From Gammaproteobacteria bacterium (GTDB lineage: Bacteria; Pseudomonadota; Gammaproteobacteria; Xanthomonadales; SZUA-36), in the NCBI GenBank assembly GCA_024279945.1, contig JAJRRA010000054.1, positions 1 to 64,000 on the forward strand: a stretch of DNA of 64,000 nucleotides. Direction: 5' to 3'. The notes beneath the pieces were generated by a model. The model did no database searches and was not told where the DNA came from. It saw only the letters and a program-made list of their open reading frames with translations. Position 1 is the stretch's first letter; every line of letters begins with the position of its first letter. The translations under genes and the position numbers were made by a program. Shown piece after piece: positions 6,171-11,946 of this stretch.

Positions 6171-7684
6171 TTATATACCCAGGCTCTTTGCGATGTGCTC
6201 GACCTGTTCTTTGGTGGCTTTGTCCATGGTGGCGACTCTGCCCCAGTCGCGATCGGTTTCTGATGCGATCTTGTTGGTCGCGTCAATGCCCATCTTGCCG
6301 CCCAGTCCGGGTTTGGGGCTGGCAAAATCCATGTAGTCAATCGGCGTATTTTCGACCAGCACGGTATCGCGCACCGGATCGGCGCGGGTGGATATGGCCC
6401 AGATCACCTCTTTCCAGTTGCGTGCATCGATGTCGTCATCAATGACGATGATGGTTTGGTGTAAGTGAACTGTCGCAGCCAGGACCAGATGCCGAACATG
6501 ATCCGGCGCGCATGGCCCGGATAGTGTTTGCGAATGCTGACGATGGCCACACGGTAGGAGCAGACTTCCGGGGGCAGGTAGAAATCCACCACCTCCGGAA
6601 ATTGTTCCTGTAACAGCGGTATGAACATCTCATTCAGAGCGCAAGCCATGACCGAGGGTTCGTCCTCTGCGGGTTTACCCAGATAGGTTGTCAGATAGAC
6701 CGGATTGTCGCGGTGGCTAATGCGTTCCACCGTAAATACCGGGAAGTCAGCGGTAGAATTGTAGTAGCCGGTGTGGTCGGCAAAGGGGCCTTCGGTAGCC
6801 ATTTCGTCGGGGTAAATGTGTCCTTCGAGTACGATTTCGGCACCGTGTGGGATGGGCAGGCCGGTCAGGGTAGATTCTACGATCCGGCTTCTGCGGCCGC
6901 GCAGCAGGCCAGAAAACTGGTATTCGGACAAGGTGTCCGGTATCGGCGTCACGGCGGCCAGTATGGTTGCCGGGTCGGCGCCTATAACAACCGCAACCGG
7001 AAAAGGTTTGCCCGGGTGTTTTAGCTGGAACTCACGAAAATCCTGTGCTCCGCCCCGGTGGGGCAGCCAGCGCATAATTAACTTGTTCTTGCCGATCAGT
7101 TGCAGGCGGTAGATGGCCAGGTTGATTCGTGGTTTGTTGGGGCCGCGCGTCACGACCATGGCAAAAGAAATCAGGGGGGCGGCATCTTTGGGCCAGCAAG
7201 TCGATATGGGCAGTGACTCGAGATCAACATCCGGGCCTTCCGTTACCTGTTCCTGCCAGGGCGCCGCGTCTTTCCTGACCGGCGTAATGTGCGCCAGCCG
7301 GGCAAATCCCGGCACCGCATCCAGCGCTGAAGGCAGGCTTTCGGGCAGGCTGGGGTTTCTCAGGAAGGCGAATTCCTGTCCCAGTTCACGCAGATCCTGT
7401 GGGCTTTCCAGTTCCAGTGCAGCGAGGATTCTTTGCTGATGACCAAACAGGTTTCCCAGTACCGGCATGTCATGGCCCTGTGGGTTTTCAAACCGCAGGG
7501 CAGGACCGCTGTTGAGCAGGCTGCGATGGCACAGTTCGGTAATCTGCAAGACGGGCGATACGGATTGGGGCACGGATTTCAGTTGTCCTGTTTTTTCCAG
7601 GGCAGCGGAAAACTGACGAAGGTCTTGCCAGGCTTTGCGGTTCACCTGGCGGTGATGGTGGTCAAGCAACCTCGAAAGCGTCAT
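6171..7684 (-). pseudogene. ubiD: UbiD family 3-octaprenyl-4-hydroxybenzoate decarboxylase, 1-base frameshift
   Basis: UbiD decarboxylates the prenylated 4-hydroxybenzoate ring in ubiquinone synthesis using prenylated FMN made by UbiX (not in this window). The protein shows family blocks such as the IYRLQLIGKNKLIMRWLPHR stretch, EGPFADHTGYYN and, at the C-terminus, LVENTPIDYMDFASP and GIDATNK. The frame breaks after TYTK near 6455-6458: adding one A to the AAA run (minus strand; TTT 6455-6457 on plus) restores TIIVIDDDIDA and joins the last ~80 residues. About 505 codons in total agrees with the family length. ATG 7684 is chosen because it precedes the family N-terminus and has AGGA upstream inside ubiV; the two genes overlap by 23 bases, suggesting coupling. 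The indel could be a homopolymer sequencing error, as the rest is well conserved. Confidence 0.88.
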
Positions 7685-8573
7685 AGTCCATTCCTGCCTG
7701 GTTAACCAGGTAGCCATTGCATGCGCCCAGCGGCAGCAAGCTGAGTAATTCTTTCCCAAGCGGCGCCAAATCAGCACCCTTGCGTGCGGCATCGAAGATT
7801 TCGATAATCTGCGGGGTTCCCTGTAACTGGGGGCTGATTCTCAGTACATCTACGCCCAGCGCTTCCAGTTCCGGCACCTGCTCCAGCGCCTGGTGGGTCA
7901 GCGCCGATTGGGTCTGGATGCCATTGAGCACCAGGAACTCCTGGCCCTCCTGGGTTGCCAGTAAACGCCCGTCGGGATAGTCAATGCACTTGAACTGACA
8001 GTCATCTTTTGGCAGGTTATGGGAGCGCGCGGTATAACAGCGGGCCGAGTAGGCCAGCGGCAGGCGGCCCAGCGCAAAGACTTCCGTTTCCACGCCATCG
8101 GGTCGTTGTGCCTGTAAATCCTTCAGAGTGTCCAGGCCCAGTTCCACCGGTAAAACCCAGCGCTTCAAGCCTTTTCGGGCAAGCAATTGCAGACTGCGAT
8201 TATTGTAAATATTGACCGAGGGGCCGGTGACAAAATCTTTTCCGGCGGTGGATAGCAACTGGATCGCCGCCACATCATTGGCTTCAACCATGAAAGATTC
8301 GTTCGAGCAGAGTTTCTTCAAAGCACCCAGTTCTGAAGCGGCTTCGAGCAGGGTTAGTGAAGAGAGAATGACTTCCTTGCCACCTTGCCTGAGTTCCTTG
8401 CCGATGGCCAGCCAGTCATCAAGCTTCACCAGGCGGCGTTTTGAACAGATGACTTCGCCCAGGTAAATGATTTCAGCCGCGCTGTCGGCAGCCTGTTGGT
8501 AAAAATTCAGAACCCGTTGACGTTCCCAGAAATACTGAATGGGCCCTATGGACAATCGCATCGTTTTCATCAT
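7662..8573 (-). CDS. ubiV: UbiV, O2-independent ubiquinone hydroxylation protein (U32 family)
   Basis: UbiV is a U32-family iron-sulfur protein that works with UbiU in oxygen-independent hydroxylation of the ubiquinone ring. The four cysteines that bind the 4Fe-4S cluster in the E. coli protein (39, 180, 193, 197) have counterparts here at 43, 179, 192 and 196, within VICSKRR, ARCYTAR and DCQFKC. The start codon follows the ubiU stop directly, and ubiD overlaps its 3' end, so the three genes form one tight unit. A start a few codons downstream (MKTMRL or MRLSIG) is equally possible. Confidence 0.95.
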   Translation of the reverse strand: MMKTMRLSIGPIQYFWERQRVLNFYQQAADSAAEIIYLGEVICSKRRLVKLDDWLAIGKELRQGGKEVILSSLTLLEAASELGALKKLCSNESFMVEANDVAAIQLLSTAGKDFVTGPSVNIYNNRSLQLLARKGLKRWVLPVELGLDTLKDLQAQRPDGVETEVFALGRLPLAYSARCYTARSHNLPKDDCQFKCIDYPDGRLLATQEGQEFLVLNGIQTQSALTHQALEQVPELEALGVDVLRISPQLQGTPQIIEIFDAARKGADLAPLGKELLSLLPLGACNGYLVNQAGMDYDAFEVA

Positions 8574-9569
8574 TTATTGCCACGGCCGGTGATAGGCGCC
8601 CAGGGTGGTGGTTGAGCCTTCGGATACGCCGGCGAGTTTCCGCATCCACTGCTCTTTTGCCTGGTAGGCCTGGGGGTCTGCCAGACAGTGATCAATTGCG
8701 GCGCGCATCACGGAAGTTACTCGTGCCACATAGGCCGGGCTGCGCTGGCGCCCTTCGACCTTTATTGCTGCGACACCGATTTCCCGGAGTTTCGGCAGGA
8801 TGGATAAAGTATTGAGGCTGGTGGGTTCTTCGAGGGCATAAAAAGTGTGTTCCCCAACCTGGAAACGGCCTTTGCACAAGGTGGGATACCCTGCTTTTTC
8901 ACCCTCACCGTAGTGATCGATCAATACGCCGTTGAGCCGTGTATCTGTGCCGTCTGGTGTTTCCTCCCAGCGCACGTGTGAGGCGGGTGAACAGGCGCCA
9001 TAGGTATTGGGCGAGCGGCCCGTGGCGTAGCTCGACAACAGGCAGCGGCCCTCCACCATCACGCACAGGCTGCCAAAACCAAACACCTCGATCGGAACCG
9101 GGGAATCCGTAATCACCTGCGCTACCTGGTTTACCGACAACACTCGGGGCAAAACCACGCGCCGGATACCAAAGTTCTGTTGATAAAAAGCGATACCCTC
9201 ACTGCTGGTCACCGACGCCTGGACCGACAAATGCAGGCGCAGGTCCGGCCAGCGCTCACTGGCATAGTCCAGCACCCCCATGTCCGCCAGAATCAATGCA
9301 TCGACACCATAATTTGCCGCCTGGTCCACGGCTGCCTGCCAGCGATCAAGCCCGCTGGGTTGAGGAAAGGTGTTGATTGCTACAAAAATTTTCCGGCCTT
9401 TGTCATGAGCATAGCGCACGGCTTTTTCGAAAGTCCGCTCGGTAAAGTTCAAGCCGGCAAAATGACGCGCATTGGTGTCGTCTTTAAAGCCGACATAAAC
9501 AGCATCAGCGCCGTTGTCAACGGCGGCTTTCAGCGAAGGCAGGTTGCCTGCGGGGCACACTAGTTCCAT
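8574..9569 (-). CDS. ubiU: UbiU, O2-independent ubiquinone hydroxylation protein (U32 family)
   Basis: This 331-residue protein begins MELVCPAGNL as in U32 peptidase-like UbiU. The cysteines at 169, 176, 193 and 232 occupy the same residue numbers as the 4Fe-4S ligands reported for E. coli UbiU, which supports orthology and not merely U32 family membership. UbiU and UbiV form a heterodimer that hydroxylates ubiquinone precursors under anoxia with a non-O2 oxygen donor. A GGAG lies 6-7 bases before the ATG. It is the first gene of the minus-strand ubiU-ubiV-ubiD unit and is divergent from ubiT across an FNR-type site. Confidence 0.96.
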   Translation of the reverse strand: MELVCPAGNLPSLKAAVDNGADAVYVGFKDDTNARHFAGLNFTERTFEKAVRYAHDKGRKIFVAINTFPQPSGLDRWQAAVDQAANYGVDALILADMGVLDYASERWPDLRLHLSVQASVTSSEGIAFYQQNFGIRRVVLPRVLSVNQVAQVITDSPVPIEVFGFGSLCVMVEGRCLLSSYATGRSPNTYGACSPASHVRWEETPDGTDTRLNGVLIDHYGEGEKAGYPTLCKGRFQVGEHTFYALEEPTSLNTLSILPKLREIGVAAIKVEGRQRSPAYVARVTSVMRAAIDHCLADPQAYQAKEQWMRKLAGVSEGSTTTLGAYHRPWQ

Positions 9570-9584
9570 GCTTGCTCCAATTGA

Positions 9585-9600
9585 ACCTGCATTTGCAGGT
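9585..9600. promoter_or_regulatory. Perfect 16-bp palindrome in the ubiU leader
   Basis: ACCTGCA-TT-TGCAGGT is a perfect inverted repeat 15 bases upstream of the ubiU start. It lies between the predicted ubiU transcription start (about 9606) and the ATG, so it could be a repressor operator or a small leader hairpin. I do not recognise the factor. Confidence 0.5.
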
Positions 9601-9612
9601 CGGTGGAATCAC

Positions 9613-9680
9613 ATTCTAGATATAGAATTCGGGGCCGTGTTGACCGGAATCAACACATCGCAGGAATGGGGAAATATACT
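9613..9680. promoter_or_regulatory. Bidirectional promoter with central FNR/ANR-type box (ubiU and ubiT)
   Basis: TTGAC-CGGA-ATCAA at 9640-9653 matches the FNR consensus TTGAT-N4-ATCAA at 9 of 10 defined positions and sits in a larger perfect palindrome, GTGTTGA-N6-TCAACAC (9637-9656). A -10 hexamer TATACT (9675-9680) faces ubiT. Its minus-strand counterpart TAGAAT (complement of 9613-9618) faces ubiU. Both hexamer centres are exactly 31 bases from the centre of the box, which puts the box at about -41 for each predicted start, the class II FNR activation position. E. coli ubiUV is FNR-activated, which fits. Promoter activity is inferred. Confidence 0.75.
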
Positions 9681-9728
9681 TGTCAGGGTCTGTAAGCACG
9701 TTAGTATCCCTAAAGGCTGAGCCATATT

Positions 9729-10232
9729 ATGTTACCAATCCCCGAATTTGTTCGTCCAATCGCTAAAAAACTGATTGGAATCCCAGGGCGCCTGGTTCCA
9801 TATGCCGCACAGAAACCGGTACTTTCCATGGTTCTGAATGAGGCCTTTCGTGAGCCTTTTCGACACGGCGAACTGGAATTTCTGGAGGGCGCCAAAATCA
9901 GGATCAAGGTAACAGACCTGTGCATAGACTGGCTGATCAGCGTGGGCGCCGATCGATTCGTCCCGGCAGACCGCAATCCGGAAGACGATGTATCCATCAG
10001 CGGCGAAAGCCTCGACTTTATTCTGCTGGCTACCCGTCAGGCCGATCCCGATACCCTGTTTTTTCAACGCCGGATCCGGATAGAGGGTGATACGGAGTTA
10101 GGGCTGGGGGTGAAAAACACCATGGACAGTATGGATTGGGACGATCTGCCGGCGCCTCTGCGCAAACTTCTGCAGGGCGTGGGTGTGATTATTGAAAAGC
10201 TGGAGCAGCGGGGCCATCCAAAAGAACCTTAA
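9729..10232 (+). CDS. ubiT: UbiT, SCP2-domain accessory factor for anaerobic ubiquinone synthesis
   Basis: The 167-residue protein has a short N-terminal segment (IPEFVRPIAKKLIGIPGRLVP) followed by an SCP2 sterol-carrier-like domain of the YhbT/UbiT type (residues about 40-130). UbiT binds lipids and is required with UbiU and UbiV for oxygen-independent ubiquinone synthesis, probably presenting hydrophobic intermediates. It is divergent from ubiU across the FNR-type promoter and precedes rquA by 179 bases on the same strand. The context makes the assignment strong. Confidence 0.92.
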   Translation: MLPIPEFVRPIAKKLIGIPGRLVPYAAQKPVLSMVLNEAFREPFRHGELEFLEGAKIRIKVTDLCIDWLISVGADRFVPADRNPEDDVSISGESLDFILLATRQADPDTLFFQRRIRIEGDTELGLGVKNTMDSMDWDDLPAPLRKLLQGVGVIIEKLEQRGHPKEP

Positions 10233-10271
10233 TTCTGCCTTGTGTCCCAAGCCCCTGCTGCTACACCATAG

Positions 10272-10285
10272 TTGATGCAGATCAT
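10272..10285 (+). promoter_or_regulatory. FNR-like box upstream of rquA
   Basis: TTGAT-GCAG-ATCAT matches the FNR consensus at 9 of 10 positions. A weak -10-like TAGAGT (10308-10313) lies 32 bases from its centre, close to the spacing seen at the ubiU/ubiT promoter. This suggests that rquA has its own anaerobically activated promoter. Confidence 0.55.
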
Positions 10286-10411
10286 TGTTGCCCACACCCC
10301 CCCCGGATAGAGTTCATCAAACAACAATTATTCGCCGTCACGGCCGAATGAGCCTGGCGGCGTTTTCTGGAAACCAGCATACGATTATGCGTCTCGACCG
10401 AGGGTAAAACC

Positions 10412-11182
10412 ATGGATGATGTTGCACGGCCAATCGAATCAGCCCAGTCTCTTCATGTGGAAGCCATGCCGGGGATTACAACCATAAAGTCTCCGGTGTC
10501 GTTGGTGCCGCCTACCACTGCACCGGAAATTCCGGACTATCTGCAGGAAACCTATTACTGGGCTTACCTCAACCCCCGAAATGTGAAGCTTCTTGATCGT
10601 GACATCGTGGTCAGAACGGTGCTTTGGCATCAGCATATGCGCTTGCAGAGACTCGCTTTTGCCGAAATTGAGCCTGGCCAGAGTGTTTTGCAGTCAACTT
10701 GTGTCTACGGCAGCTTTTCTGCAAATCTGGCAGAGTATCTTGGCCCGGACGGTAAGCTGGATGTTGTCGATGTCGCCAAGGTGCAGGTGGACAACGCGCG
10801 GATCAAGCTCAAGGATTATCCACAGATTTCAATTCACCACGCCAACGTGATGCAATTGGATGACAAACCGTTTGATGTCGTGCTGTGTTATTTCCTGTTG
10901 CATGAACTACCCGATGAAGACAAGTACAAGGCAACCAACGTACTCCTGGACAAGGTCAGGCCGGGCGGAAAAGTAGTCTTTGTCGACTATCACAAACCCG
11001 TTTGGTGGCATCCGATCAAGCCCATCACCAGCCTGGTCTTCGATACGCTCGAGCCTTTTGCAAAAGGATTGTGGCGCAGGGAGATCAGGGAATTCGCGGA
11101 CAAGCCTGAACGCTTTAGCTGGAGCAAAGAACCCTGTTTCGGCAAGTTATTCCAGAAGGTTGTCGCTACGCGTCTCGACTAA
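10412..11182 (+). CDS. rquA: RquA, rhodoquinone biosynthesis methyltransferase-like enzyme
   Basis: RquA converts ubiquinone to rhodoquinone, the low-potential quinone used by fumarate reductase during anaerobic respiration. The 256-residue protein has a Rossmann SAM-binding fold in which the usual glycine-rich motif I is replaced by CVYGSFSANLAEYL, followed by LDVVDVAKVQVDNARIKL, then FFLLHE-like FLLHELPDE and VVFVDYHKPVWWHP. The VYG motif I, the DVVD segment and the DYHKP block are as I recall for RquA and unlike UbiE or UbiG. A leader of about 45 residues precedes IPDYLQETYYWAYLNPRNV, which is also RquA-like. The neighbourhood (ubiT, ubiU, ubiV, ubiD) strongly supports a quinone role. ATG 10412 is preceded by GAGGG. 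Confidence 0.88.
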   Translation: MDDVARPIESAQSLHVEAMPGITTIKSPVSLVPPTTAPEIPDYLQETYYWAYLNPRNVKLLDRDIVVRTVLWHQHMRLQRLAFAEIEPGQSVLQSTCVYGSFSANLAEYLGPDGKLDVVDVAKVQVDNARIKLKDYPQISIHHANVMQLDDKPFDVVLCYFLLHELPDEDKYKATNVLLDKVRPGGKVVFVDYHKPVWWHPIKPITSLVFDTLEPFAKGLWRREIREFADKPERFSWSKEPCFGKLFQKVVATRLD

Positions 11183-11190
11183 ACCACGGT

Positions 11191-11946
11191 TTATTCCGGT
11201 TTGCGGAATTTCAAGGTGAAACGGTCCGTATTGCCGGTGACGGTTTTGCGGCCGACCTCGTAACGCAGTTCATCATCCGGGCGGAAGTGGAGCGTGGCAT
11301 AGTCCTCCAGTTCAAAACCGGCGGCCTGGATTTCCTTGATGGCCAGAACCGGATCTATACGCCGGACATTTTCAACATTATCCGCTTCCATGTGGCGGCG
11401 GGTGTGGTCTACCACGGCGTAAACTCCCCCGGGCCTGAGTGCTTCAAACGCCGCCTTGTTCATAGCCGCGCGGCCTTCTGCTGCAAAATTGTGGTAGTTG
11501 CGAAAAGTCAGCACCATGTCGGCATCTTGCACGCCCAGACCATCCATTTCCAGCGCATAGAAACGGGAGCCTTCCGGCCGATATATTTTTGCATCCCGGG
11601 CCGAGATCCTGATGTTTTCAAACCCCACTTTGCCGACCAGGGATCGCTCTATTCCACCGGTTCCCAACGCGGCAATGTACTCTCCTTTTTCCGCCATGAC
11701 CGGCGCCAGCAAGCGGGTGTACCAGCCCCCGCCCGGCATCAGTTCAACAATGCGCATGTCATCGCGTAAACCGAAAAACCGCAGGGTTTCCACCGGCATG
11801 CGGTTATGATCACGCTTCAGTTCACGTTCGCTACGCAGATCAGAAGCCATGGCCGCCTTCAATTTTGCCCCCACTGCGTCAAAATCATCGGCTGCTGCCG
11901 TACTGCACAGCAGGGCAGTGAGTAGAATCAACAAGTATTTCTTCAT
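11191..11946 (-). CDS. Exported class I SAM-dependent methyltransferase-like protein
   Basis: The 251-residue protein starts with a Sec signal peptide (MKKYLLILLTALLCSTAAADD, cleavage after TAAA), followed by a Rossmann methyltransferase-like domain: VELMPGGGWYTRLLAPV as motif I, then DMVLTFRNYHNF and LRPGGVYAVVDH. It belongs to the COG4798-type predicted methyltransferases often found with signal peptides in proteobacteria. SAM is not expected in the periplasm, so the physiological substrate and even the cofactor are unclear. It ends 8 bases from rquA, convergently. Confidence 0.8.
   Translation of the reverse strand: MKKYLLILLTALLCSTAAADDFDAVGAKLKAAMASDLRSERELKRDHNRMPVETLRFFGLRDDMRIVELMPGGGWYTRLLAPVMAEKGEYIAALGTGGIERSLVGKVGFENIRISARDAKIYRPEGSRFYALEMDGLGVQDADMVLTFRNYHNFAAEGRAAMNKAAFEALRPGGVYAVVDHTRRHMEADNVENVRRIDPVLAIKEIQAAGFELEDYATLHFRPDDELRYEVGRKTVTGNTDRFTLKFRKPE

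Follow-up and report, generated by a model that had tools for sequence, protein, structure and literature searches.

Oxygen-independent ubiquinone genes beside rquA, and a second RquA lineage at a fumarate reductase operon, in a gammaproteobacterial genome

The DNA studied here (hereafter the window) is a stretch of 64,000 nucleotides from a Gammaproteobacteria bacterium (Xanthomonadales, SZUA-36; GenBank assembly GCA_024279945.1, contig JAJRRA010000054.1, positions 1 to 64,000). Positions 6171-11182 of the window carry an island of five quinone genes. ubiU, ubiV and ubiD are read from the minus strand, ubiT and rquA from the plus strand (Table 1). The start of ubiD was chosen by eye as the ATG that overlaps the end of ubiV. 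UbiU, UbiV, UbiT and RquA all exceed the curated, function-specific cut-offs of NCBIfam (model NF038261 for RquA). Coordinates and family cut-offs thus agree with the original prediction, made from the sequence of this region, that ubiUV, ubiT and rquA stand side by side. That prediction also placed all eight iron-sulfur (Fe-S) cysteines of UbiU and UbiV where they are expected, and the positions do match. The Fe-S cysteines of UbiU are residues 169, 176, 193 and 232, the same positions as in E. coli UbiU (PMC6747719; this and the other papers cited by PMC number were available in part, and statements taken from them refer to those parts). In UbiV, cysteines 43, 179, 192 and 196 form a CXnCX12CX3C pattern. 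The eight cysteines are invariant in every aligned row, the alignments comprising 16 UbiU and 13 UbiV rows with the window entered twice per set and two genomes entered twice. Among solved structures, RquA matched general methyltransferases alone (best E 3.5e-5).

Table 1 Features of the quinone island in the window
Feature	Positions	Strand	Remarks
ubiD, 4-hydroxy-3-polyprenylbenzoate decarboxylase type	6171-7684	-	1-base frameshift near 6455-6460
ubiV, [4Fe-4S] U32 protein of O2-independent ubiquinone hydroxylation	7662-8573	-	381 bits, cut-off 275
ubiU, UbiV partner	8574-9569	-	561 bits, cut-off 440
FNR-like box TTGACCGGAATCAA, divergent ubiU/ubiT promoter region	9640-9653	n/a	consensus scan
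ubiT, SCP2-domain accessory factor	9729-10232	+	140 bits, cut-off 46.9
FNR-like box TTGATGCAGATCAT, between ubiT and rquA	10272-10285	n/a	consensus scan
rquA (class A), ubiquinone-to-rhodoquinone aminating enzyme	10412-11182	+	285 bits, cut-off 175; trees

A second RquA is encoded on another contig of the same genome. It scores 290.5 bits against the cut-off of 175 and is 36% identical to the window copy. We call the lineage of the window copy class A and that of the second copy class B. The class B gene is the last one of a frdABCD-rquA operon. FrdA (948.6 bits, cut-off 932.7; TIGR01176, quinol-fumarate reductase), FrdB (374.7, cut-off 333) and FrdD (79.4, cut-off 60) are above their cut-offs. 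FrdC passes the Pfam cut-off (111.8, cut-off 24.2) and misses the NCBIfam one (82, cut-off 143). A separate succinate dehydrogenase-type flavoprotein is also encoded. The original prediction had linked the island to fumarate-type respiration and named a search for fumarate reductase as a check. The reductase is indeed present, but it is paired with the second, different RquA and not with the window copy. Because frd travels with the second RquA, we tie the window copy to quinone synthesis and see no direct tie between it and fumarate reduction.

The association between class B and frd recurs in the family of the source organism (host family, 39 genomes). frd genes adjoin class B in 17 of the 18 genomes with class B, G003 being the exception. 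They are present in 20 of 22 genomes with an RquA of class A, B or C (class C is described below) and in none of 11 without, in a comparison covering 34 of the 39 genomes, searched at E 1e-100, where frd fragments in the genomes lacking RquA could have escaped. Partial FrdA of G002 and G030 and FrdD of G037, which all lie where a contig ends, were scored as presence of frd. G010 was set aside: it has an RquA-like fragment only, and its complex II flavoprotein shares 39% identity with FrdA, the same value as for the succinate dehydrogenase type of G000. Since class B and frd form one operon, these counts reflect mostly a single linkage and are not independent evidence.

In a tree of 93 proteins, class A is found within a clade (98/85) of sequences from Rhodospira, Roseospira, Pararhodospirillum and Aromatoleum. 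The class B proteins of the host family make up a separate clade (100/99), which falls outside the former and among other Pseudomonadota (85/73). The placement of the protein at 10412-11182 outside RquA had been named beforehand as a result that would overturn the original prediction. The protein lies inside RquA, where it groups with Rhodospira, Roseospira and Pararhodospirillum. Classes A and B occur together in six host-family genomes (G000, G005, G006, G024, G028 and G030). Duplication within the family was considered as the source of the two copies and was rejected, since the approximately unbiased test gives p-AU 6e-8 for a grouping of A with B, a value that is optimistic because the two groups had been defined from a first tree. 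The copies therefore do not stem from a recent duplication. Contamination of the draft was likewise rejected as the source of the second RquA: the stated contamination is 0.25% and the same pair is found in six genomes. Of the genomes sampled, 398 from Pseudomonadota and 369 from the class, only the window's genome has two RquA above the cut-off. A protein search of plasmid records for the named relatives of class B gave no match. Separately, recurring record titles reveal apparent pairs of A-lineage RquA in alphaproteobacterial drafts (L072/L081, L074/L078, L073/L094 and L099/L114), and in three of the four, one member of the pair lies upstream of frdA.

RquA is recognized by a motif I with Gln and Val in place of Asp/Glu and Gly (PMC7813818). 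Window RquA has Q94 and V98 in this motif, and the motif-I Gln and Val as well as the post-I Asp are retained in classes A and B. D120 of the window protein is the equivalent of D118 of Rhodospirillum rubrum RquA and is retained in classes A, B and C; this equivalence was set by alignment position and spacing, that of D143 (discussed below) by spacing, and in both cases not against the R. rubrum sequence itself.

Class C is a group of divergent, membrane-anchored RquA-like proteins from six host-family genomes (loci L033-L038, e.g. L034:7116-7916). They score 144-150 bits, below the RquA cut-off of 175. They keep the motif-I Gln and the post-I Asp, and the motif-I Val is replaced by Ala. Because both the cut-off and the Val tests failed, class C is not assigned to RquA. 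The class C gene adjoins ubiTUVD genes in five of the six genomes, and this position suggests that its substrate is a quinone. Class C also has a hydrophobic N-terminal stretch, with a Kyte-Doolittle maximum of 2.3-3.1, whereas classes A and B do not exceed 1.03; L039, a protein of another family, reaches 2.68. None of the 39 host-family genomes has class C together with class A. Taken together, class A or C lies beside ubiU in 10 of the 12 host-family genomes with both genes, five of six for class A and likewise five of six for class C.

The window was scanned with the FNR consensus TTGATNNNNATCAA, allowing up to one mismatch. Only the two boxes of Table 1 were found in the whole 64 kb, where 2.06 are expected by chance, and both fall within the island's two promoter stretches, which together span about 340 bases. 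Eleven ubiU/ubiT regions of the host family were then picked by hand around the gene ends; nine of them contain a box, six perfect, against a background of 12 in 3000 random 180-nt stretches of the window. In Pseudomonadota, the interval between these two genes is already known to hold an FNR-like box (PMC11707229). The source genome encodes one FNR homologue above the cut-off.

The genome also encodes two adjacent O2-dependent ubiquinone hydroxylases with full-length frames, one above the UbiH cut-off and the other above a subfamily cut-off only. Among menaquinone markers searched in the genome, which is stated to be 97% complete, MenD stayed below its cut-off and MqnA and MqnD gave no match. 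As both sets of hydroxylases are there and the menaquinone markers are unmatched, ubiquinone can be expected with and without oxygen, and the predicted rhodoquinone is the sole low-potential quinone compatible with the markers searched.

From these gene identities and linkages we propose, with a probability of roughly 0.7, that the island is an anaerobic quinone-supply module equipped with a class A RquA, and that the class B RquA serves frd. UbiU, UbiV and UbiT, together with UbiD, would make ubiquinone without oxygen. The adjacent class A RquA would then exchange a methoxy group of that ubiquinone for an amino group, giving rhodoquinone. An FNR-type regulator would probably turn the island on as oxygen drops. 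The class B RquA, in turn, would make rhodoquinone where and when its consumer, the quinol:fumarate reductase, is made. The two copies may in this way divide the labour of rhodoquinone formation. On this view the reading given in the original prediction is largely right, amended by the second RquA at frd and by the ubiD frameshift in this assembly.

Several observations weigh against this proposal. The source genome is a draft of 91 contigs. A box with at most one mismatch precedes the island rquA in only 3 of 10 cases, and the frdA operon in only 1 of 11. Joint control of the island rquA and the frd operons is therefore unsupported, and these are weak parts of the proposal. The other observations concern a residue of class A RquA, the neighbourhood of rquA outside the host family and the reading frame of ubiD. 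Each of them feeds a different explanation.

All six class A rows have Asn at the D143 equivalent, located by its spacing (+25 from D120), vs Asp in all six host-family class B rows, which by the same spacing retain both Asp. One Pararhodospirillum sequence has Asn at this position, like class A. In R. rubrum RquA, changing both D118 and D143 abolished rhodoquinone, and only this double mutant was reported inactive (PMC9814641). Asn at the D143 equivalent leaves room for change in the island enzyme. Rhodoquinone could then come from the frd-linked class B RquA only, the island copy having drifted to another quinone reaction, such as one on a ubiquinone precursor or on the other methoxy group. 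In line with such a drift, the host-family class B proteins are just 36-43% identical to window RquA (44% for a 101-residue fragment), and yet both classes are retained in six genomes. We nevertheless consider this explanation unlikely. Class A scores about the same as class B with the RquA model and has the Gln/Val motif and the post-I Asp. Three host-family genomes have class A without class B. Moreover, class A nests with Rhodospirillum relatives, and its closest relatives outside the host family in the trees (L066, L068 and L069) are directly upstream of frdA. The same position is found for A-lineage relatives outside the host family in 12 of 80 named loci, including these three. In the host family, an A-type rquA that once belonged to a fumarate reductase operon may therefore have been relocated to the ubi island, with a B-type copy holding the frd operon.

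Outside the host family, rquA and ubiU are neighbours in none of 56 genomes with both genes, 40 from the phylum sample and 16 from the class sample; among the latter, one has UbiU below the cut-off, and RquA was counted from E 1e-25, so that proteins below the cut-off are included. In one of the 40 (G106), rquA and ubiU are on one contig, 1.8 Mb apart. Three further members of the host's order also carry both genes, each time on different contigs. As many assemblies are fragmented, some neighbours may be hidden. The survey of rquA-ubiTUV adjacency, another check that had been called for, thus finds it rare outside the host family. The adjacency could be an inherited linkage without functional meaning, as the ten host-family cases could stem from few events. 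This is quite unlikely in our view because the place of rquA varies: it follows ubiT in the window, L023 and L055, it follows ubiD in L025 and L051, and the class C gene is convergent to ubiT in L033, L034, L035, L037 and L038. In addition, ubiU shows in the DNA covered by four of the 80 named loci. Two of these belong to the host family; the other two, L076 (labelled Woeseiaceae) and L099 (labelled Azospirillaceae), are cases of the adjacency outside it. In L099, about 40 bases separate the ubiV stop from the first rquA ATG.

The ring decarboxylase gene of the original prediction is there, but not as a single intact frame. The upstream frame of ubiD terminates at 6404, and the conserved C-terminus proceeds in another frame to the stop at 6171-6173. 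All eight relatives compared have one open ubiD frame. A second ubiquinone-type UbiD was not found in the source genome. It has three other UbiD-family proteins; on the E. coli-type model two of them score 239 and 151, and the remaining one is unmatched at E 1e-30. All three are of other UbiD types: one passes the phenylphosphate carboxylase beta cut-off, one only the general UbiD-family cut-off, and one has a VdcC match alone at E 1e-30 or better. Window UbiD itself passes the general UbiD cut-off (383, cut-off 245), and its best match is the E. coli-type model (524 bits vs cut-off 788). The frameshift is not the sole cause of this low score, because five of five intact host-family relatives (660-674) and L076 (710) also fall under 788.

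If the frameshift were real, the island could be decaying and anaerobic ubiquinone synthesis would be broken. In a relative (G024, L023:10707-11633), an in-frame stop separates the two halves of ubiV as well. We regard decay as improbable. The frame past the shift is conserved and stop-free: the last 83 codons are 82-86% identical to two relatives, and the C-terminal part is 62-75% identical to six others (116-column alignments). The break is of one base and lies beside a short A run in a draft genome. With this and the conserved downstream part, an assembly error or a very recent mutation appears likelier than an old pseudogene. Finally, UbiD is expected to serve the O2-dependent ubiquinone pathway too, and both O2-dependent hydroxylases have full-length frames.

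The proposal of an anaerobic quinone-supply module can be set against known systems. With the ubiTUV pathway of E. coli and other Pseudomonadota (PMC6747719, PMC11707229), the island shares the genes, the Fe-S cysteines and the divergent ubiT/ubiUV arrangement with an FNR-like box. It differs in having ubiD directly behind ubiV and rquA joined to the locus. In the available parts of these two papers, we found no mention of rquA at the ubiTUV locus. Window RquA resembles R. rubrum RquA in exceeding the family cut-off, in its motif-I Gln and Val, in its D118 equivalent and in belonging to the clade of R. rubrum relatives. In contrast to the R. rubrum protein, it has Asn at the D143 spacing, adjoins ubiTUV and shares its genome with an RquA of a second lineage. 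Linkage of rquA to complex II genes was described by Stairs et al. 2018 (PMC5953543), and the second copy, which ends the frdABCD operon, shows the same linkage. Unlike the cases described there, one rquA is here immediately at ubiTUV, and two deep lineages are present in one genome. The available parts of the same paper report that in many bacteria a distance of up to 15 genes separates rquA from respiratory complexes and from functions including ubiquinone biosynthesis, that rquA is apparently not placed close to candidate enzymes of quinone biosynthesis, and that among 182 organisms none encodes both Group A and Group B. O2-independent ubiquinone synthesis co-occurs with rquA in 73 of 84 rquA genomes (PMC11707229). 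A full-text literature search, with supplements and subscription papers excluded and sources available in part, found no account of rquA beside ubiTUV or of two RquA lineages in one bacterium. What looks new is the gene arrangement and the combination of two RquA lineages; the chemistry has been described before.

A broader and more tentative reading is that the two RquA of deep lineages, docked to ubiTUVD and frdABCD, provide separate or separately timed supplies of rhodoquinone, class C filling the synthesis-side slot in sister species. This is possible, though we would not favour it at present. Class C would then either modify quinones as a new kind of enzyme or stand in for RquA as a non-orthologous replacement.

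Some further observations were made around these genes. In L034, the class C gene is followed by ribokinase-like and nucleoside hydrolase genes, homologues of which are found in several other class C loci. A further RquA-like lineage (L031, L032 and L188-L205) scores about 143-184 bits, around the cut-off, and is spread over many families of the class; of the 25 genomes in the class sample with such a protein, 8 have UbiU. Two members of this lineage, L029 and L030, adjoin frd genes. In the window, a 251-residue protein (11191-11946) is encoded convergent to rquA. It has a signal-peptide-like start and no Pfam or NCBIfam match at E 0.001. Judged by eye, it resembles a secreted protein of methyltransferase fold.

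The two RquA lineages of this genome bear on the claim, in the available text of PMC5953543, that two RquA types never coexist, if they correspond to its Groups A and B. In the island, gene order links the O2-independent synthesis of ubiquinone to the formation of rhodoquinone, two pathways that co-occur widely. With two RquA lineages, each beside its own gene set, a split of the rhodoquinone supply between quinone synthesis and fumarate respiration would become approachable by gene removal.

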